From assembly GCA_902541775.1 (NCBI GenBank), contig CACBSE010000010.1, positions 1-36,304 on the forward strand: DNA of 36,304 nucleotides. Reading direction: 5' to 3'. Source of the stretch: an uncultured Litorivicinus sp. (lineage in GTDB: Bacteria > Pseudomonadota > Gammaproteobacteria > Pseudomonadales > Litorivicinaceae). Below, in pieces: positions 6,888 to 36,304 of this stretch; position 1 is the first letter of the stretch; the number at the start of each line of letters is the position of its first letter. A model generated the notes under the pieces. It was not told the origin of the DNA. It worked only from the letters and a program-made list of their open reading frames with translations, and made no database searches. The translations under genes were made by a program, and so were the position numbers.

Positions 6888-8087
6888 GTGGACACACAAT
6901 TTCCGCGCATTGAGCGCCTGCCTCCTTATGTTTTCAACGTCATTGGTGAAATGCGTCAGAAAGCAAGGGCGGCCGGTGAAGATGTCATTGATTTTTCGAT
7001 GGGAAATCCGGATCAGCCAACCCCCGATCATATCGTCAAAAAGTTAGTCGAAACGGCGAATCGTGAAAACACGCATCGGTATTCTCAGTCCAAGGGAATC
7101 CCTCGTCTGCGTCGCGCAATGGCTAACTGGTATCGGATGCGCTATGACGTTGACTTGGATGCAGAGACTGAGGTCATTACCACCATCGGATCGAAAGAGG
7201 GTCTTGCGCACCTTGCCATGGCAACCCTGGGCCCCGGTGACGCGGTGCTCGTACCAAACCCAGCCTATCCGATCCACCCTTATGGATTCGTTATTGCAGG
7301 TGCTGATATTCGCCACGTTCCACTGCTTCCAGGCGAATATTTTTTTACAGAGTTGGTCAAAGCGATCGAGACCTCCTGGCCTCGACCGAAAATGTTGGTA
7401 TTGAATTTTCCGGCTAATCCGACAGCAATGTGCGTCGAAATTGATTTCTTCAAGAAAGTGGTCGAGATCGCTCGCGAACATGATATTTGGGTCGTTCAGG
7501 ATCTGGCCTATGCTGACATTGTATTCGACGGCCATGTCGCTCCGTCGATTCTGCAGGTTGACGGTGCCAAAGAGATTGCTGTGGAATTCTTCTCGCTTTC
7601 GAAAAGTTACAACATGCCTGGATGGCGAGTCGGTTTTGCCGCCGGGAATAGGGAGTTAATTGGTGCTTTGGCCCGAATAAAGTCATATCTCGACTATGGA
7701 ACATTCACGCCGATTCAGGTGGCTGCTATCGCTGCACTTGAAGGTGATCAAACTTGCGTACATGAAATCCGCGATATGTATCAAGCGCGTCGCGATGTGT
7801 TGTGTGAAGGGTTGAACGCACTGGGATGGCCGGTCGAAAAGCCGAAAGCAACCATGTTCGTGTGGGCAAAAATTCCAGAACAGTATCGTGAGATGAGATC
7901 GCTGGAGTTTGCGAAGAAATTAATTCGTGATGCCAATGTCGCTGTGAGCCCTGGGATTGGTTTTGGCCAATACGGTGATGACCATGTGCGCTTTGCATTA
8001 ATTGAAAACGAACATCGAACACGTCAGGCGCTTCGTAATATCAAACGCCTATTCCGCGTTGACTCGACAATGACAGAAACTTTCTAA
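6888..8087 (+). CDS. alaC: Class I PLP aminotransferase, alanine transaminase AlaC
   Basis: The predicted reaction is pyruvate plus glutamate to alanine plus 2-oxoglutarate. The 399-residue protein matches E. coli AlaC closely through its length: [16 protein letters not shown] near the start, [42 protein letters not shown], the PLP lysine K239 in [15 protein letters not shown], and the end motif [22 protein letters not shown]. The start is GTG at 6888. The gene sits between dsbC and hom, is separated from hom by only 9 bases, and so is probably co-transcribed with the threonine genes. Confidence 0.92.
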
Positions 8088-27758: not shown

Positions 27759-28854
27759 ATGGAAATAAATGCCCGTAATACAATGATGGCAGACCTAAAG
27801 GCGCGTACCGACGTGCTGAGGGGGTATCTTTGACTACACAGCGAAGCGTGAACGACTCGACGAAGTCAATCTAGAGCTCGAAGATCCAAACGTCTGGAAT
27901 GATCCGGCCAAAGCACAAGCACTTGGTCGCGAGCGCGCAAGCTTGGAAGCTGTCATCGACACGATTGATGAGTTGGACCAAAGTCTTGCCGACCAGACCG
28001 AGCTGACGGGAATATTGCTTGAAGAAGGCGACCAAGAGGGACTCGTTGAAGTCGACGAAGAACTTGAGCATCTAGAAACCTTGGTTGCTGGTCTTGAGTT
28101 CCGCCGAATGTTTTCTGGCGAAGCTGACGGCAACAATTGTTATCTCGATATTCAGGCGGGTTCAGGAGGAACCGAAGCACAAGACTGGGCCAATATGTTA
28201 CTTCGCATGTATCTCCGTTGGTCTGAGAAAAAAGGTTTTAAGGTTGAGGTCGTCGAGGTTTCAGAGGGTGAGGTCGCAGGGATCAAGAGTGCAACGATTC
28301 ATGTGCAAGGTGAATATGCCTTCGGCTGGCTACGGACAGAGACAGGTGTCCACCGATTAGTTCGTAAAAGTCCTTTTGACTCTGGCGCAAGACGTCATAC
28401 TTCGTTCTCTTCAGTGTTTGCCTCGCCTGAAATCGATGACAATGTGGAAATTGAAATTGATCCATCTGATCTTCGCATTGATACCTATCGAGCGTCAGGA
28501 GCTGGTGGTCAGCATGTCAACAGAACAGATTCTGCGGTACGTATCACCCATGAACCGAGTGGAATTGTGGTGCAATGCCAAAGCCAGCGTTCACAGCACC
28601 AGAATAAGGATTTTGCGATGAAACAACTTCGCGCTAAGTTGTATGAACGCAAGATGGACGAGAGACGTGCTGAAGCACAAGCGCTTGAAGACTCAAAAGC
28701 AGATATTGGCTGGGGTAGTCAGATTCGTTCTTATGTCTTGGATTCCAGTCGGATTAAGGATTTGAGAACAGGCGTGGAGACCTCCAACACGCAATCAGTG
28801 TTGGATGGTGCTTTAGATCCATTTATTGAAGCAAGTTTGAAGCAGGGACTGTAA
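27759..28854 (+). CDS. prfB: Peptide chain release factor 2, with programmed +1 frameshift
   Basis: RF2 releases peptides at UGA and UAA. Zero frame starts at ATG 27759 ([10 protein letters not shown]) and runs 24 codons to in-frame TGA at 27831-27833. Ribosomes must skip one base after CTT (27828-27830) and continue GAC-TAC to give [13 protein letters not shown]. The long frame then carries [20 protein letters not shown], the stop-codon tripeptide SPF in [11 protein letters not shown], and the catalytic GGQ in [10 protein letters not shown]. The N-terminus lines up with E. coli RF2 (MFEINPVNNR...VLRGYL), which fixes the start. The TAA overlaps lysS ATG by one base. Confidence 0.97.
27819..27834 (+). 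promoter_or_regulatory. RF2 autoregulatory +1 frameshift site
   Basis: AGGGGG-TAT-CTT-TGA-C: an internal Shine-Dalgarno-like stretch sits three bases before the CTT slippery codon and the UGA stop. Low RF2 lets the ribosome slip to the +1 frame. It is the canonical arrangement. Confidence 0.96.
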
Positions 28855-30368
28855 TGACTGATCACACCACTCCAGAGATCGAAGTCGATGAAAATCAACT
28901 GATCACTGAGAGACAGAAAAAACTGTCTCTGATCCGCGATGCCGAGGGACCTACATTTCCGAATGACTTCAGACGGAGCCATTTAGCACTTGAGCTTACG
29001 AAAATGCACGGATCTGAAGATAAAGAGACGTTGGCTGAAAACGGTATTGAAGTCGCTGTTTGTGGTCGTGTGATGTTACGTCGAATCATGGGAAAGGCGA
29101 GCTTCCTCACGATTCAGGATACCAGTGGTCGTATCCAACTTTACGCTCGAAAAGCGGATCTTCATGAAGGCGTGTATGAGGATTTTAAGACCTGGGATCT
29201 TGGTGACATTGTTGGTGGCCGCGGGACATTGTTTAAAACCAATACCGGAGAGTTATCCGTTCATTTGACCGAAATTCGGTTACTCACCAAATCATTGCGT
29301 CCTCTGCCAGATAAACATAAAGGCCTGACGGATAAAGAACTATGTTATCGCCAGCGCTACGTTGATCTCATGACCAATGATGAGACACGTCACGTGTTTA
29401 CCTTGCGTTCAAAGGTAATCGCAGCGATTCGTCACTTTTTTGAATCACGTGATTTCTTGGAAGTCGAAACGCCGATGTTGCAAGTGATCCCCGGTGGGGC
29501 AACGGCGCGTCCTTTTGTCACCCATCACAACGCACTTGATATCGATATGTACCTTCGAATCGCGCCGGAGTTGTTCTTGAAGCGACTGGTTGTTGGTGGA
29601 TTCGAGCGTGTATTCGAGATCAACCGCAACTTTCGCAATGAAGGATTGTCGACCCGTCATAACCCGGAATTCACAATGCTCGAATTTTATTGGGCCTATG
29701 CGGATTATCGTGATTTGGTCGCTACAACCGAAATGCTGCTACGCGAAGTCGCACAAAATGTGTGCGGCAAAACTGTATTTACACTTGAAGACGGCTCACA
29801 AGTTGACTTGAAAAAGGCATTCCATACGCTAACGGTTAAAGAAGCAATTTTGAAGTATTGCGATAAAGCAAAAGATGCAATCCTTGATGATCTGGCACAA
29901 GCGACAACGCTCGCCCAATCATTAGGACTGGCAGTAGAGTCGTCGTGGGGCCTCGGCAAAGTACAAATTGAGATTTTTGAAGCGGTAGCTGAAGAGAAAT
30001 TGATGCATCCAACATTTATCACGGAATATCCGGCTGAAGTGAGTCCGCTTGCACGACGTAATGATGAGAATCCGTTTGTCACTGACCGATTTGAGTTTTT
30101 TATTGGTGGACGGGAACTTGCGAATGGGTTTAGTGAGCTCAACGATGCCGAAGATCAGGCGCAACGTTTCCGCGAACAAGTTGCGCAAAAAGCCGGTGGC
30201 GATGTTGAAGCAATGTTCTATGACGATGATTATGTGCGAGCTCTTGAATATGGGTTGCCGCCAACAGCTGGAGAAGGCGTGGGCATTGACCGGCTCGTCA
30301 TGTTTTTAGCTGAGCAGCATTCGATTCGTGATGTCATTCTTTTCCCAGCGATGCGTCCGCAGGGATAA
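28854..30368 (+). CDS. lysS: Lysyl-tRNA synthetase, class II
   Basis: Charges tRNA-Lys. The 504-residue enzyme has an N-terminal OB anticodon-binding domain ([30 protein letters not shown], about 66-95). The class II core has motif 1 around [15 protein letters not shown], motif 2 [23 protein letters not shown] and motif 3 [13 protein letters not shown]. Length is the family norm. It is coupled to prfB by TAATG, the same prfB-lysS order as E. coli. The 65-base gap downstream leads to the unusual ABC-like operon. Confidence 0.98.
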
Positions 30369-30433: not shown

Positions 30434-30844
30434 ATGAATCCGTGGATCGCACATCTTGAAAATCAGGATTTGAAATGGATCGTAGACTATGGTCAAGGGG
30501 TCTATTTGGATCCAGGAATCGATGTGTATTTCCCGAAGCCAACATTGATCCTTGACGGGCAACTTGAGTGTCGAGGTCATGTTCGAGGTAGTGGGGCGTT
30601 ACTGGGAATTTCAGAATGGTATCTTGAGGTCGACCGAGGTGCGCTTTGGAGTGTTATAACACCCGTTTGGGCACTCGAGTTACCACTGACCCGTCAACAT
30701 CGAACGACTTGGAGTGTTGCGATTGCTGTTGCGATGTCCGCTGAAATTCGGCTCGCACAGCCTGATACCCGCGGCCTTGCTGATGTGGAAGCGGCCCGTT
30801 TGAAATTCCGGTATGTTGTGAGTCAGCTAGAGACCACTTTATGA
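30434..30844 (+). CDS. Small cyclic-nucleotide-binding-fold-like protein, first gene of ABC-like operon
   Basis: No family is recognised with certainty. The 136-residue protein has no signal or membrane span. Its middle reads like a degenerate CRP-type beta roll: VYLDPGIDVYF (the LxPGE region), TLILDGQLECRG (LYLVLSGxV region), GSGALLG (GxFGE region) and WSVITPVWALELP (the A-x-TxxxLLxLP strand). The phosphate-binding cassette (RSA/T arginine) is not evident, so cAMP binding is doubtful. The ATG at 30434 has GGTGAG three bases upstream; TTG at 30431 is an alternative. It is followed after nine bases by the mini-HlyD gene. The fold assignment is inference. Confidence 0.6.
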   Translation: MNPWIAHLENQDLKWIVDYGQGVYLDPGIDVYFPKPTLILDGQLECRGHVRGSGALLGISEWYLEVDRGALWSVITPVWALELPLTRQHRTTWSVAIAVAMSAEIRLAQPDTRGLADVEAARLKFRYVVSQLETTL

Positions 30845-30853
30845 GGGACCAAA

Positions 30854-31360
30854 GTGGCTGAAGAAAAGCGCCAATCGGCGACAGATAGTTTAGGATTGCC
30901 TCGCCGAATGTGGTGGCTGTGGCCTTTTGTTGTTCTATTGATTGTGATCTGGGCAATCAGTTTGTGGGTAATTCGAGTTGCAGATACGCAGGCAACGCTT
31001 GGTGTTGTGACTTCACACCGTGGGCTTGGCAATACCGCACGGGCTGAAGTCGCACTATTTGTCCCCTCTACGATGCAATCACGTGTGCTCGGTGAGCGCG
31101 TTGATGTGACATGCCAAGACGTGACACTGATCGGCCAAGTGTTTACCGAGTCGGGCGATATTTTGTCTGTTCAAGATATTCGTGACTGGGTTGGTAGCCG
31201 GTTATTGGCAGAGCGATTGTTTAATCAAGGCGTTCGATTACAACAGGTTGTTACCGAGTCGGATACGAATATCCCCGCGCCAGGCGAACATTGTGACGTG
31301 ACATTGATCAGCGGGCGTGTTCGTCTCATTGATCTATTAGGCCGTAGCTTAAGCCCATGA
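30854..31360 (+). CDS. Truncated HlyD-like adaptor, NHLM-system type
   Basis: The 168-residue protein has a cytoplasmic N-terminus, one span (about 21-42, WPFVVLLIVIWAISLWVI) and a periplasmic part. That part matches the C-terminal half of NHLM bacteriocin-system secretion proteins as I know them: AEVALFVPSTMQSRVLGERVDV, LIGQVFTESGDILSVQDI, and the end GEHCDVTLISGRVRLIDLLG. The coiled-coil hairpin and lipoyl domains of a normal HlyD (350-450 residues) are absent, so it could not span to an outer-membrane channel in the usual way. GTG at 30854 is the start. It overlaps the next gene by four bases. Confidence 0.6.
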   Translation: MAEEKRQSATDSLGLPRRMWWLWPFVVLLIVIWAISLWVIRVADTQATLGVVTSHRGLGNTARAEVALFVPSTMQSRVLGERVDVTCQDVTLIGQVFTESGDILSVQDIRDWVGSRLLAERLFNQGVRLQQVVTESDTNIPAPGEHCDVTLISGRVRLIDLLGRSLSP

Positions 31361-32586
31361 CAGCGACTTTGGATGGCTTTATTGCAACTGGAGCGACTTT
31401 TGAAGCTGTCGCGGATGAAGCTGAATCACTCGGATATCAGTTGAGAGAACGTCGCTTAAAACCGCCAGTTTCTGGATCTATTTTTGTTGATCAAAATGGC
31501 CTCCTGCACCGTGTGCGTTATCAACTCTTTGGTTGGGTTATCAGTATTGATGGCGACTCAAAAATCCATATCGTTCGGTGGCGGAAGGCGTTCACGGTCG
31601 GCGGATACGTGCTTGAGCCTGAGGTAGCCGATTATCGACTGACTATACAATGGCTCGCTTTGACTTTTGTGGTCCTCGCACGATTACTGCTCGTGCTGAT
31701 GGTTAGCATCCTCGGTCAGGTCGATGATTTGTCGTTGACTCCGCTTTGGATTTTAACAGCCCTCATTTTGGCTTCGACGACATACACTTCAATCACATTA
31801 ATTCACAGATCGCAGTGGCGAGACCTTGAAGCAGCGTTAGATGCGATGGCGCCTGATTGGATTCCAAGACTGTCCAGAGACGTTGGTGGCCGTAGCCTAG
31901 CATGTTGCACGATTCTAGGCATGTTGATGCTTGATAGTGTTCTGCAACTGTCCACATCAATTTGGGTGGTGGGGCTTGGTTTCTTGTTTCTTGATCTGAT
32001 GCCGACGCGTCATTTCAAACAAGCGCGAGCGATTGCTCCGAAACCTCGGGTCCGGATCGAACGAAAGCCGAGAAAAATGATGGATGAGCTGCTTGAGCTA
32101 CTTCATCTCAAAGGCGCGGGAGTACACGTGTTACGAACTCAGGTTCCAGAGATACTCTTGCGTGCGAGCGAAGAACTGGTTCGTCAAGGCCAGCCAATTA
32201 CTGTTCTAGGTCCAGAATCCGAGTTCCTGCCGGGTACGTTAAGGAGTAACTTTGCCTGGGATGCGAGTGACGAGGGTGAATACCATTTCGCCAATCTGAT
32301 GGAATTGATTGGATTGACTTATTGGCGAGAACGTTTCGGTGATTCACTCAATTATCAAATCGGACCTGACAATCAAGGTCTCTCATCCTCAGAGGCAGCT
32401 GCGTTGGCAGTCGCTCGAGCGCTGGCACAAGGTGCGGATACGTTAATTTTAGTCGATGCGTTAGCGCCTCTCTCGGCCGATCGGCAAATGGAGCTACTGA
32501 ATCGATTAGGTTCTGCGAATTGTCGTATTTTTGTATTTTCCAGCGTGTCTGACTTATGGGAAGGTGATGTCGTTGGGCTCGATTGA
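31357..32586 (+). CDS. Degenerate ABC exporter-like protein with C39-like remnant
   Basis: The 409-residue protein looks like a shrunken peptidase-ABC exporter. Residues 15-90 resemble the end of a C39 peptidase domain (EAVADEAESLGYQLRERRL then WVISIDGDSKIHIVRW), lacking the cysteine half. Four spans (about 98-118, 130-150, 178-198, 200-216) replace the usual six. From 280 the nucleotide-binding domain is legible only in its second half: VLGPESEFLPGTLRSNFAW (Q-loop region without Q), GLSSSEAAALAVARAL (signature LSGGQ changed to LSSSE) and TLILVDALAPLS (Walker B with alanine for the glutamate). I find no Walker A and no H-loop histidine. ATP hydrolysis is therefore unlikely. The frame is intact. 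Confidence 0.62.
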   Translation: MTATLDGFIATGATFEAVADEAESLGYQLRERRLKPPVSGSIFVDQNGLLHRVRYQLFGWVISIDGDSKIHIVRWRKAFTVGGYVLEPEVADYRLTIQWLALTFVVLARLLLVLMVSILGQVDDLSLTPLWILTALILASTTYTSITLIHRSQWRDLEAALDAMAPDWIPRLSRDVGGRSLACCTILGMLMLDSVLQLSTSIWVVGLGFLFLDLMPTRHFKQARAIAPKPRVRIERKPRKMMDELLELLHLKGAGVHVLRTQVPEILLRASEELVRQGQPITVLGPESEFLPGTLRSNFAWDASDEGEYHFANLMELIGLTYWRERFGDSLNYQIGPDNQGLSSSEAAALAVARALAQGADTLILVDALAPLSADRQMELLNRLGSANCRIFVFSSVSDLWEGDVVGLD

Positions 32587-34405
32587 AGCGCAAATTTTTC
32601 AGCTCGCGGCTGGCAACGTCTCAGCAAACCTTGCTAGGGATCGTTTATGGCAAGTCAAAGAAGGTGAAGCGAGACTCCGTCTGCTGATCTCAGACGATGA
32701 AATTGGAACCATGCCAGTTCCTGAATCAGGTTGGTTCCTAGTTCCTGAGTCGGAGTATTTACATATTCAGTTAATCGCAGACACAGCGATCTCGTTTGAA
32801 AGTCGGCTCCCACTCAGTCTGATCCCGCGGCTGGGTGATCTCGGCCGTAACCAGTTGATTCAACCCATTCGTCAGATGATGTCTGTCGCGGGTGTTGATG
32901 ATGGTGTCATCGACTGGAGTGTAAAATTAGCGCAACCCACATTCCGGTCTTGGTTCGGTGCGTCATTGGATCAGTCGATTAGGCTCGCTCAACCAATGTC
33001 ACCCGATATTATAACGCCACTGATTGCTGATCATGTGCCGCGAACAACGTTGGAGGAGGATTCGCTGCCTGAAGAACGGCGCGCGCTGCCTGTTTTGGTG
33101 ACTGCATCGATCTTATCAATTGTCGCTGTTGTGAGTTGGCTTTGCGCTTTAGTGACCTTTGAAGCACCAGGTTTTGCGCTGAGTTATAAATATTCCACTG
33201 TTGCGCTTGCAAGCCTAGGTATTGTTGTGTTGGCTGTTTGGGTAATTCATTTGTTCGCCCAGTATTATCGTGACGTATCACTTGTTAGTTTAGCGGCTGC
33301 CTTAGCAATGATGATACTGATACTCCTTTTCGAAGCCCCAAAAATTGCCATCTCGTTGATCTTTTCAGGAGGTCTGATCGGCGTGGCATATTGGGTCTAT
33401 GTGCGACGATTGCTCACTGAACTTCCAGCGATTGATCAGCCTATGCGCTGGTTATCGCTTCGGTTATCGCGTGATGGAGTCCCTTCCGTTAGAGAACGTG
33501 TACTCAAAGTTTGGGATCAGGCGCGTCATTGGGTGATCGCACGGATCGAATTGGTGGCTGAATACAGCCGATTTAGCCGCGCAGTGATTGCTGCAAGTTT
33601 GGTGATTCCTGCGATCGCATCAACGGATGAAACCCGACCAGTCGTTTTAACAGGACTGTCACTCGGAGCCCTGCTATTAATAGAACGCTTGCGTGCTGCA
33701 ATGCCAGTGAGTCTCGAGTCAACACCAGAACAGGGCGATAAAAAAACCGTGCGGCCTTTAGTGCTGAGTGGGGAAGTGCAATATGAAGACGTTGTCTTTC
33801 GGCGTCACGCGGGCGAGGCTCCGTTATTCAACCTACTGAGCTTCCATTGTTCTGATGACAGCTTGGTTCGTATCACCGCTGCTGAAGGCGCTGGCCTCTC
33901 AACGCTCAAACATTTATTACTCCGTCAAGTGACTCCAGAGCGCGGTATCGTGCGTGTTGGTGGAATGGATGTCGCACGGCTGGATCCAACTGTGTTGGCT
34001 TATTCTGTAATTATGCTCGATCATCCGCGAGACACCGACGTTACGACGGTCGGGGAGTGGTTGTTTATCGAACCGGGCATCGAGCCATCGACGCTTGAGA
34101 TACACCTGCAAGCATTATCTGCCAGCCATTGGATTGAATCGTTGCATGATCGCTTGAATGCATCATTGGGAGCTTTGCAATCGATCGCGGGTCCGCACGG
34201 GATGAATCGCTTGAAAATTGCAAGGGCGTTGTCAAGAAAGGGTCAGCTGATGTGGCTTGATCATTGGTTAATTGGTCTTGATCAGCGTTCGCGAACACAC
34301 GTCATCGATAGTTTGGTCGAACGCTCAGGGACACGTTTCGTGGTTGATCGCAATGAATTGCTCAAAGGTCAAGCATCGATTCACTGGGAGGTCTTGCGTG
34401 ATTGA
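32567..34405 (+). CDS. Degenerate ABC exporter-like protein, NHLM permease/ATPase type
   Basis: The 612-residue protein has an N-terminal soluble domain (1-165) resembling the cyclic-nucleotide-like region of NHLM ABC proteins (DRLWQVKEGEARLRLL). Spans lie at about 174-195, 210-230, 240-255, 260-277, 338-352 and 355-373. An ABC domain from 398 follows: LVLSGEVQYEDVVFRR. Every active motif is altered. Walker A is AEGAGLST, with L444 for lysine. The Q-loop reads IMLDHP, the signature SIAGPHGMNRLKIARAL, Walker B LMWLDH (H566 for glutamate) and the H-loop FVVDRNE. Architecture is kept while catalysis appears lost. Start ATG 32567 follows GGGAAGG closely; TTG at 32573 is a possible alternative. 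It overlaps its neighbours on both sides. Confidence 0.65.
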   Translation: MSLGSIEAQIFQLAAGNVSANLARDRLWQVKEGEARLRLLISDDEIGTMPVPESGWFLVPESEYLHIQLIADTAISFESRLPLSLIPRLGDLGRNQLIQPIRQMMSVAGVDDGVIDWSVKLAQPTFRSWFGASLDQSIRLAQPMSPDIITPLIADHVPRTTLEEDSLPEERRALPVLVTASILSIVAVVSWLCALVTFEAPGFALSYKYSTVALASLGIVVLAVWVIHLFAQYYRDVSLVSLAAALAMMILILLFEAPKIAISLIFSGGLIGVAYWVYVRRLLTELPAIDQPMRWLSLRLSRDGVPSVRERVLKVWDQARHWVIARIELVAEYSRFSRAVIAASLVIPAIASTDETRPVVLTGLSLGALLLIERLRAAMPVSLESTPEQGDKKTVRPLVLSGEVQYEDVVFRRHAGEAPLFNLLSFHCSDDSLVRITAAEGAGLSTLKHLLLRQVTPERGIVRVGGMDVARLDPTVLAYSVIMLDHPRDTDVTTVGEWLFIEPGIEPSTLEIHLQALSASHWIESLHDRLNASLGALQSIAGPHGMNRLKIARALSRKGQLMWLDHWLIGLDQRSRTHVIDSLVERSGTRFVVDRNELLKGQASIHWEVLRD

Positions 34406-34865
34406 GCAGCAACTGTTCCTGGGTGCATTGACTGAACAGGAATATCGACATTGGTTCGATAACTCGGTCATTAAAGAGTTGCGGCCTGGCGAGACGCTCA
34501 TTGGCGCGGATGATTTTCCCGATATCCATCTCGTTTTGCGTGGTCAATTTGCGATGCGCCGGGGAGAGCGATCGCCGGGTGTGGTCGGTTTGGATGAATT
34601 TCTCACCGGTTGGATGACCGATCGAGAGTGGCTTGCCGATCGGTCAATGGTACTGATTTATTTGGATTCAGGTCGATTTGGACAAACGTTATCGATTGAT
34701 CCACGTCGAAAGCACCTATTTCACCAAAGTGTAACACCCATGCTGGCTGGTCGCTTGTATCGTGATTTATGTGAGAGTCAGACTATTCCTATCGCTCTCA
34801 TGCGCGGATTTGAGCGAGGCGTGACACGTTTCCACGAGCTCCGGCAGACCTTTTTAAAGCGATAA
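34398..34865 (+). CDS. Second cyclic-nucleotide-binding-fold-like protein, last gene of ABC-like operon
   Basis: The 155-residue soluble protein contains KELRPGETLIGADDFPDIHLVLRGQFAMRRGE followed by GVVGLDEFLTG, a recognisable beta-roll core of the CRP/cNMP-binding fold. No DNA-binding helix-turn-helix and no clear phosphate-binding cassette are seen. GTG at 34398 is chosen because GGGAGG lies six bases upstream; an upstream in-frame start would run deep inside the preceding gene. It overlaps that gene's stop by eight bases, so it is translationally coupled. Function is unknown; a regulatory or scaffolding subunit of the membrane complex is an inference. Confidence 0.66.
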   Translation: MIEQQLFLGALTEQEYRHWFDNSVIKELRPGETLIGADDFPDIHLVLRGQFAMRRGERSPGVVGLDEFLTGWMTDREWLADRSMVLIYLDSGRFGQTLSIDPRRKHLFHQSVTPMLAGRLYRDLCESQTIPIALMRGFERGVTRFHELRQTFLKR

Positions 34866-34879
34866 GCGAGCAATCATCT

Positions 34880-35949
34880 AGTCATCAAGAAGGGATTTTT
34901 ATCTGTCAATCATGAGTTGTTTCTGTATGTTGTATGCACCACAACTGATGTTTGTAGAGCTGGCGGCGCGTTCTACGGTTTCAACCTGAAGCCGGTCTCT
35001 TAGTCTTAGTAACTCTGATTCTGCCCGCGATCACACCATTGAGTTACGGGATTTTTATAACAACTTAGCGCGCTCTCTATCCTGAAATGGGCCTTAGCAT
35101 TTTTGGCTATTACCATGGCATGGTCTGGCTTTGTGCATTCCTACGAGGGCATGTTGATCCTTCGTTTAAGTCAGGGTGCGCTGCTTTCCGCGATCATAAC
35201 GGTAACCATGGCTTATTTGACGTTCGGCCGAGAAGGTCGTGTGTTATCGCGAGTCATGGCACTCTATATATCGGCCATAATCTTTGGCAGAATGGCGTTT
35301 CCAATCAGCTGGCTTCATATACCGAGTGGTAATGGGTCGCATCGTTGTGGGCTGCTCTACTTTTGCTGGTGATGATGACTCCATGGAGACGGGCAACGCC
35401 AAAACCGTTGAATTTGATTAAACTGGAAGCGCAGCTCAGTAAACAGGCAGTAACCAGTTGAGGAAATGGCCTGATTTTTCCATGGGTCTTTTATATGTGT
35501 TGGGTGTTTACCGAATACCTCAATTAATTGCCATTTCGGATTAATGAAGTTTATCCAGGTTCTTCGATGGGTTTGGTCGGGCAGAGTTACCTTGGATATA
35601 GTGTCGGGATTTTGTCTGCTTTCACCATTGGTTGGCTAGCCGAACGACTTATTGGGCCGATCCGTTTTGCGATGGCCGCTTTAATGTAATGATTGGAGTC
35701 CTTGTCCTTTCATTGGGCGATATCTGGATGTTGATTGCGCAAGTATTTGTCATATGTCTCGGTATGTTTGTCATCCATCCGTTGGCCGCCTCGGAGGTCA
35801 ATCATAATGCCCGTTCGCTGGGTGGTTTTATCAATGGGCTTTATGTTTTATGTTATTACACTGGAGGGGAGTTTGGCGCTTAGTTGGTGGGATATATCTA
35901 CGAGTTATTTGGCTGGACTCTGTTCTTAATGGCCCTTGCTGAAATCTGA
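34880..35949 (+). pseudogene. Decayed MFS transporter (YnfM-like)
   Basis: Pieces in several frames line up with E. coli YnfM-type major facilitator transporters. They are VIKKGFL near 34880, CMLYAPQLMFVELAARSTVS near 34930, a long stretch ending LYISAIIFGRMAFPISW (35103-35320), SSMGLVGQSYLGYSVGIL near 35565, and VIHPLAASEVNHNARSLGGFINGLYVLCYYTGGEFGA then GYIYELFGW (35690-35945). Between and inside them are several stops (for example at 35881-35883) and frameshifts, and the segment expected after the first spans is missing. It is clearly non-functional as a full transporter. Confidence 0.85.
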
Positions 35950-35990
35950 GGATTGGGTACTTGTTGCATGTGGCTGTATGGCCAGATGCA

Positions 35991-36304
35991 TCAGACACGA
36001 CGACGATAAGTCGCTGCATTTTTGTTGTTTTCACGACACTCAACTTCGATAAGAAAGGATCGGTGATTGGTTTGTTCACGGATCCATTTGTCAACATGGT
36101 CAAATACAAACTCTGCGGTCCGTTCCATACTGACATTTGGTAACACGCGCAGGTCGACAATTTGTTTGTCATGAAGATCCTGAAAAAGTTGTAGTTCGGG
36201 ATCATCTTCATTGATCAGCGTTGTATGGTCAAACCAGTACGAGAGCCAGGATTTGATGTCAGAGAATTCACCAAAATCGATACCGAACCCAGATTCCGTT
36301 AACT
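35991..36304 (-). CDS. queD: 6-pyruvoyl-tetrahydropterin synthase/QueD family protein (partial, N-terminus off window)
   Basis: A minus-strand frame enters from the right edge and runs 103 codons to a TGA at 35991-35993. It has the C-terminal half of the T-fold: GFGIDFGEFSDIKSWLSYWFDHTTLINEDDPE (the DFxxLK and DH motif), then SMERTAEFVFDHVDKWI (the PTxEN helix with altered first residues) and FLIEVECRENNKNAATY (the ET motif). The family makes 6-carboxy-tetrahydropterin for queuosine or related pterins. The zinc-binding histidines would lie off the window, so the exact enzyme is not certain. It converges on the MFS pseudogene. Confidence 0.78.
   Translation of the reverse strand, partial: LTESGFGIDFGEFSDIKSWLSYWFDHTTLINEDDPELQLFQDLHDKQIVDLRVLPNVSMERTAEFVFDHVDKWIREQTNHRSFLIEVECRENNKNAATYRRRV

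Follow-up and report, generated by a model that had tools for sequence, protein, structure and literature searches.

We analysed a 36,304-nucleotide stretch of DNA (hereafter the window; contig CACBSE010000010.1 of assembly GCA_902541775.1) from an uncultured Litorivicinus sp. whose own genome (G000) is 61% complete at 1.26 Mb, and in it a unit of five genes, called here A to E in their order 3' of lysS. This unit is derived from an NHLM-type exporter of the ATP-binding cassette (ABC) class but is not a member of that kind. As read from the sequences, both ATP sites of its two ABC-like proteins, C and D, are destroyed; most of the residues that replace the catalytic ones are conserved like functional residues, and the genes show ratios of nonsynonymous to synonymous substitution (dN/dS) close to that of lysS. 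We judge it slightly better than an even bet that the unit encodes an exporter-derived, ATP-independent membrane complex, whose role would lie in scaffolding or signalling. A preliminary description of the window, made from its letters alone, had proposed an exporter-derived, non-transport complex of this sort, bracketed by two cyclic nucleotide monophosphate (cNMP)-fold proteins, and had named the presence of the operon in relatives, dN/dS and fold matches as the points on which the proposal should be checked. In what follows, G and L numbers denote genomes and loci, respectively, and the unit comprises these features:

Gene A, 30434..30844, plus strand: 136 amino acids (aa); stand-alone cNMP-fold-like protein, by sequence a paralogue of E.
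Gene B, 30854..31360, plus strand: 168 aa, GTG start; N-terminal hydrophobic helix plus a small domain; probable short HlyD-like subunit.
Gene C, 31357..32586, plus strand: 409 aa; reduced protein of the ABC exporter type, probably C39-ABC (ABC1) in kind.
Pseudo-nucleotide-binding domain of C, 32203..32583, plus strand: LGP (284-286) leading to EFLPG (289-293), then LSSSE, D367-A368 and S395-S396, placed by alignment.
Gene D, 32567..34405, plus strand: 612 aa; reduced NHLM/C39-type ABC protein according to profiles, AlphaFold2 and fold matches.
P-loop position of D, 33884..33904, plus strand: EGAGL(S/T)T, with lysine replaced by leucine in 20/20.
Gene E, 34398..34865, plus strand: 155 aa, GTG start; cNMP-fold protein resembling the NHLM-associated kind.

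The open reading frames of the window confirmed the five intact, coupled plus-strand frames described earlier, with a gap of 9 bases between A and B and overlaps of 4 (B/C), 20 (C/D) and 8 bases (D/E). Among the relatives, the 4-bp B/C overlap was kept in all 18 sets, and the D/E overlap, with starts picked by script, was 8 bp in all but two of 20 cases, which had 14 bp. Because A-E sets with kept overlaps could be extracted from 18 genomes, the coupling of the frames is more than chance.

The earlier statement that neither ABC-like protein holds an intact ATPase motif was verified column by column. In all 20 aligned D sequences, the lysine of the P-loop is replaced by leucine (L444, within EGAGL(S/T)T), the switch position is an aspartate (D594), the Q-loop region reads LDHP (484-487) and a W563-x-D565-x-W567 motif is invariant; the position of the Walker B glutamate is occupied by histidine in 17 sequences, asparagine in two and glutamine in one, and the signature position reads GPxG. 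In C, the segment from the first strand of the nucleotide-binding domain (NBD) to the Q-loop, which includes Walker A, is missing, and LGP is soon followed by EFLPG in 18/18, with the signature GLSSSE, D367-A368 at Walker B and S395-S396 at the switch invariant in 19/19. The intact relatives used for comparison, a set which had been chosen for Walker A, show GxxGxGK(S/T) and DE. Since the motifs are lost from both C and D, neither composite ATP site should work. The membrane domains are also reduced: in the alignments, D is without about 47 columns of the ABC2 membrane domain, expected at the first intracellular loop, and C without about 105 columns of that of ABC1. No Pfam C39 match was found in C, and its alignment to ABC1 begins at residue 53 of the L112 protein, past the cysteine region.

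Selection was measured as Nei-Gojobori medians over 17 genomes; of the 136 pairs, 17-22 were usable for each gene. The dN/dS medians were 0.063 for A, 0.066 for B, 0.065 for C, 0.091 for D and 0.093 for E, compared with 0.070 for lysS, and dN alone was 1.5 to 2.3 times that of lysS; values near 1, named in the preliminary description as evidence against its proposal, were not seen, the range being about 0.06-0.09. Most replacement residues are fixed although the proteins diverge down to 42-46% identity. The earlier argument against plain decay, made from intact frames and coupled starts, is upheld by the dN/dS values, by A-D being stop-free in the orthologues read and by these fixed residues. 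With both ATP sites lost and dN/dS near that of a tRNA synthetase, the unit offers a natural test of the purpose that a pseudo-ATPase can serve.

Conservation was followed across 22 genomes of the genus (Litoricola/OM252), several of them incomplete; A-E sets came from 18 of these, and pieces cut by contig ends were found in G006, G007 and G018. At least part of the unit is present in 21/22. In 20/22 (the own genome and 19 of the 21 others) D has an orthologue, 44-93% identical, whose matched part is free of stops, and C was also found in 20/22, with one weak NBD match in the sister genus. G018, which has no D, carries lysS-A-B-C and then the contig ends; G004 (60% complete) gave no D match and is uninformative on the absence of the unit, because its lysS match is missing as well. 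In G002, D seems to start late because its beginning is cut by a stretch of N, which does not prove a frame shift. Wherever the contigs of relatives reach, the order is prfB-lysS-A-E, in some genomes with an additional gene, X, between lysS and A, and so the operon that the preliminary description expected in relatives is there, in the same order beside lysS. Trees of A-E and lysS are concordant in their main groups, with a long branch for G021 and five forks of the lysS tree open.

Beyond the genus, the best D matches, among the matches listed, reach NBD level, E gave no match at 1e-4 in 273 other genomes of the class, and in the sister-genus genomes G022 and G024 no operon follows lysS, the place being taken by a long opposite-strand gene that looks RND (resistance-nodulation-division) transporter-like by eye. 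Records bearing D are labelled Litoricola, Litorivicinus, HIMB30, LSUCC0096 or only Gammaproteobacteria. An artefact of metagenome assembly was rejected, given that the records of HIMB30 (L072, 93% identical) and LSUCC0096 (L075, 83%) carry D and that G009 and G001 show all five genes in order. PMC8269220 presents HIMB30 and LSUCC0096 as strains of OM252, 'Ca. Halomarinus', and experiments on the unit are conceivable in both. The main text of that paper does not contain the words bacteriocin, HlyD, secretion or lysS, which does not by itself make the unit new to the literature.

The profile comparisons show that D derives from C39/NHLM-type ABC exporters. Against NCBIfam, D matched TIGR01846 (6.3e-15) and TIGR03797 (5.3e-14), mainly over its C-terminal part and far below the cut-offs (51.6 bits for TIGR03797, which requires 709.4). 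Profiles built from NHLM systems of the phylum matched D nearly over its full length, at E = 1e-13 for ABC2 and 9.2e-14 for ABC1, values that do not separate the two types. An origin of D from CydDC was rejected with a control made from the CydDC of the genus, in which D matched six NHLM ABC proteins at about 1e-12, far better than CydC (1.4e-5) or CydD (0.0022). A defence system was also rejected, PADLOC giving only a weak match to the C-terminal part of D (E = 0.0034), and viral models returned ABC proteins and, at weak E values, cupins.

C is an ABC exporter-type protein, and its origin from the ABC1 type is probable. Its best NCBIfam matches, covering the NBD only and far below the cut-offs, were to CydDC and LssB (best 3.1e-7), and TIGR03796 was absent from the 10 families matched at E up to 1. 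The ABC1 profile, made from 18 ABC1 proteins, matched C, with deletions in the alignment, better than the ABC2 profile (1.9e-7 vs 1.7e-4), whereas a smaller first set had given the opposite order (ABC2 1.3e-5, ABC1 2.7e-4). We take C as ABC1-derived because of the gene order, the N-terminal alignment and the Foldseek matches, with a doubt remaining from CydD that is weighed below. The NHLM link proposed earlier thus stands for D, at about 1e-13 vs 1e-5 or worse for CydDC, and for E through TIGR03896, and it is less firm for C.

The fold check gave no unrelated folds, the matches of both proteins being ABC exporters in Foldseek and in VIA-align. Foldseek placed the C39-type exporters HlyB (8.6e-7) and PCAT1 (2.8e-6) on top for C, and ABC exporters for D. 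VIA-align superposed residues 166-609 of D on PCAT1 (4s0f_A; Z 14.7, root-mean-square deviation (rmsd) 16.1, 413 residues), with residues 1-162 outside the list, and residues 239-409 of C on the NBD1 of CFTR (6gjq_A; Z 12.9, rmsd 3.3, 161 residues); for C, ABCD1 and CydDC shared the highest Z, about 13, with rows that contain an NBD alone, and its NBD fold lies at 230-409. The AlphaFold2 model of D shows an N-terminal beta-roll domain and several hydrophobic helices kept, and about four membrane helices are predicted for C.

Of the accessory proteins, E has a cNMP fold: 15 of 19 members match PF00027 (best 5.9e-5), the window's own E being without a match. It also resembles TIGR03896 without, on its scores, being a member, as six of 19 members match that family (best 1.3e-4) and the curated cut-off of 161.05 bits is not reached. 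TIGR03896 comprises two cNMP domains over 317 positions, compared with the single domains of A and E at the two ends of the unit. Residues 59-80 of E, SPGVVGLDEFLTGWMTDREWLA, look unlike the canonical cNMP phosphate cassette with its arginine. A, of which 18 sequences were aligned, had no convincing Pfam match of its own and is a paralogue of E by profile alignment (E = 2.2e-5 over 129 columns), the remaining comparisons, in which B and the N-terminal domains of C and D also took part, giving 0.0044 or worse. The two cNMP-fold proteins proposed for the ends of the unit are therefore supported directly for E and, for A, indirectly through this alignment. No firm match came from the PDB for any of A, B and E, the best for E being a cGMP kinase at 0.0044. 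In L113, a 158-aa TIGR03896-like protein (minus strand, 6979-7455; 1.5e-30) stands directly before intact HlyD-ABC1-ABC2 genes, a position that matches that of A before B-C-D.

B has a single N-terminal hydrophobic helix by hydropathy and is probably a short HlyD-like subunit. Its best profile match, to a pooled NHLM HlyD set, was weak (E = 0.0054), and thus the HlyD homology assumed in the preliminary description was not borne out by profiles. The earlier reading of B as shortened needs a correction, since five same-order loci with intact ABC genes (L065, L066, L068, L069 and L127) carry a gene of 177-189 aa in the place of B; shortness alone is therefore no sign of degeneracy. L067 and L128 have a 456-aa gene there.

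The absence of a leader precursor noted earlier was upheld for TIGR03793 only: in 25 genomes of the family, no place exceeded the cut-off of this NHLP precursor model, TIGR03798 (Nif11) being outside the search, while an NHLP leader over the cut-off was found in 4/4 controls with intact systems. Places below the cut-off occurred in G005, G007, G012, G013, G017 and G021, of which only that of G021 was read. The protein there (L133:535-1158) scored 63.7 bits as a whole against TIGR03793 (cut-off 50.9) and 260.5 against nitrile hydratase alpha (cut-off 249.85), and from these scores it was read as nitrile hydratase alpha and rejected as a candidate precursor. Such a nitrile hydratase alpha with a His/Asp-rich N-terminus is a source of false NHLP precursor calls.

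Intact systems of the NHLM kind were counted with TIGR03797. No genome among 293 of the order exceeded the cut-off; seven had matches of nearly full length, to which the 11 genomes of the genus in that sample contributed none. In the class 8/369 genomes and in the phylum 9/299 exceeded the cut-off, these samples sharing genomes. In L069 (9590-13403), L065 and L066, the NHLM exporter is followed first by a protein of 433-455 aa, whose N-terminus is nitrile-hydratase/NHLP-like, and then by a 794-798 aa protein (with a fatty-acid-desaturase domain in L069); a leader on so large a protein would be unusual cargo.

PMC2887384 describes the NHLM exporter cluster as a HlyD-like protein (TIGR03794), a C39-ABC protein (TIGR03796) and an ABC protein (TIGR03797). 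The A-E unit is like this system in the coupled order HlyD-like-ABC-ABC, in the profile of D and in having a cNMP protein of the associated kind, and B-C-D is colinear with HlyD-like-ABC1-ABC2 loci, with B matching weakly and neither C from CydD nor the ABC1 and ABC2 types for D being separated. It differs in its dead ATP sites, the absence of the C39 cysteine region, the short transmembrane domains (TMDs), the failure to find a leader precursor and scores far below the cut-offs. CydDC, a thiol exporter, is also an ABC heterodimer, with live ATP motifs and without known HlyD-like or cNMP partners; in sets of equal size the NBD of C fits CydD as well as ABC1, whereas D fits NHLM far better. Altered ATP-site residues within a heterodimer, as in C-D, are found in the well-studied TM287/288, TmrAB and BmrCD, but these keep one active site, whereas C-D has lost both and C has no P-loop altogether. 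SbmA-like proteins have an ABC-type membrane domain that works without ATP, a property that C-D would share, if active at all; SbmA is not known to have an NBD, whereas C-D retains conserved pseudo-NBDs.

The unit is flanked by the following genes in the window:

lysS, 28854..30368, plus strand: open reading frame; conserved upstream anchor, with prfB before it.
Remnant of gene F, a major facilitator superfamily (MFS) transporter, 34863..36009, plus strand: pseudogene in the window, bounds set by eye.

In seven relatives F is intact and shares 4 bp with E, at the stop of that gene, and stop-free matches exist in nine. A tblastn search with an intact copy found F in the window spread over two frames, one holding 7 stops and the other 2. 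F is broken in G006 and in the sister genome, G020, as well, and it is unmatched in 8/20 loci, one of which, G012, ends just after E. As A-E remain intact in the window and in G020 although F is broken there, F serves as a decay control that argues for constraint on A-E. Gene X encodes a hydrolase of the AstE/AspA family (PF24827, E = 1.2e-9), located before A with a 4-bp overlap in G003, G011 and G021 (L050:11818-12945, minus strand; L046:5991-7118); it also follows lysS in G006 and, in G007, lies on the contig on which C begins. It was matched in 5/22 genus genomes and in none of the other 17, several of which are incomplete. The longest coupled form seen is X-A-B-C-D-E-F (G011), and A-D is the part never seen broken. 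The preliminary description had missed the coupling of X and F in some relatives and a broken E in G006. An intact CydDC pair, encoded by the opposite strand, lies 3' of the unit in 6 of the 19 loci read (G001, G002, G007, G011, G014 and G021; L038:1761-4948, L050:2838-6106, and also L036, L043, L048 and L051); the identification was made on the pair of G001.

We propose that a C39/NHLM-type exporter would have lost both ATP sites, any peptidase centre and parts of its TMDs before the genus radiated, and that purifying selection would then have kept the unit in the form of an ATP-independent complex of the inner membrane. C and D may form a fixed heterodimeric membrane core, whose pseudo-NBDs would make up a cytosolic platform together with A and E, and the single-pass B would expose its domain to the periplasm; the whole may serve for scaffolding or for relaying signals through the inner membrane, joined in some lineages by X and F. 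The broader idea, that an entire export machine, from membrane core and ATPase domains to adaptor and cNMP-fold proteins, was exapted to an ATP-free sensing or scaffold complex, fixed genus-wide, with the old catalytic motifs rebuilt as new conserved ones, falls, in our estimate, somewhat short of even. Export of the NHLM kind is unlikely, because an ATP site, a peptidase centre and an accepted precursor are all missing and the membrane domains are reduced. The unit is also a warning that counts of ABC genes can overstate the number of exporters.

Several observations weigh against the proposed scaffold or relay complex and its NHLM ancestry. The profile of B missed the HlyD-like genes of seven NHLM-bearing genomes at E up to 10. 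C matched CydD (9e-6) about as well as six ABC1 proteins (1.8e-5), so that sets of equal size do not separate them. The cNMP nature earlier assigned to the N-terminal domain of D found no significant profile match, the comparison with the ABC2 cNMP domain giving E = 0.038 and the best value, 0.0044, falling in another ABC2 region. The AlphaFold2 models reached a predicted local distance difference test score (pLDDT) of only 71 and 70, with much of D 383-466 and C 147-177 under 50. The TMDs of C and D are shortened yet present, which leaves room for ATP-independent transport, and dN is 2.3 (D) and 2.1 (C) times that of lysS. In G006, moreover, several stops and frame changes break E (L049, directly after D), D being open as far as it can be read and the F that follows also broken, and hence E cannot be essential in every genome. 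This case and the comparison with CydD lowered our confidence in the scaffold reading by a small step, leaving it only just on the favourable side.

Four other explanations were weighed against these data. The shortened TMDs could still carry out ion-gradient-driven transport as in SbmA, the NBDs being kept as structural parts; PMC13316013 describes SbmA as proton-driven and structurally related to the TMD of ABC proteins, and the several hydrophobic helices of D would suit such a role, but with about four membrane helices in C and some 47 columns missing from D a transport path is doubtful, and we regard this explanation as unlikely. We give a little less credence to the proposal that C and D assist some other ABC ATPase that is intact, as its regulators or structural parts, so that transport would continue in trans. 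Other ABC exporters are present in these genomes, CydDC is a candidate through its closeness to 6/19 loci and the fit of the C NBD to CydD, and, according to PMC7756269, it is common for a degenerate site to have one active partner. C and D are nevertheless coupled to each other and to no other ABC gene, the CydDC genes lie on the opposite strand, and D fits them far worse than NHLM ABC proteins.

To about the same low degree we credit a processing and efflux module, in which X would cleave an acylated amino compound, F would export the product and the dead exporter would anchor or gate F. The 4-bp overlaps of X with A in three genomes and of F with E in seven speak for it; X was found, however, in only 5/22 genomes, several of the 22 being incomplete, and A-D persist where F is broken (three loci) or unmatched (8/20). 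A decaying exporter on its way to loss could account for the lost motifs, the shortened domains, the broken E of G006, the three broken copies of F and the absence of X from 17/22, but such plain pseudogenisation is very improbable and was mostly rejected, the case of G006 notwithstanding, on the conservation and on dN/dS values like that of lysS, with A-D free of stops in the orthologues read and the replacement residues fixed at identities down to 42-46%.

Separately from the unit, a single contig of G018 (C48, 12184-37169) carries a cluster of several more ABC-type matches.

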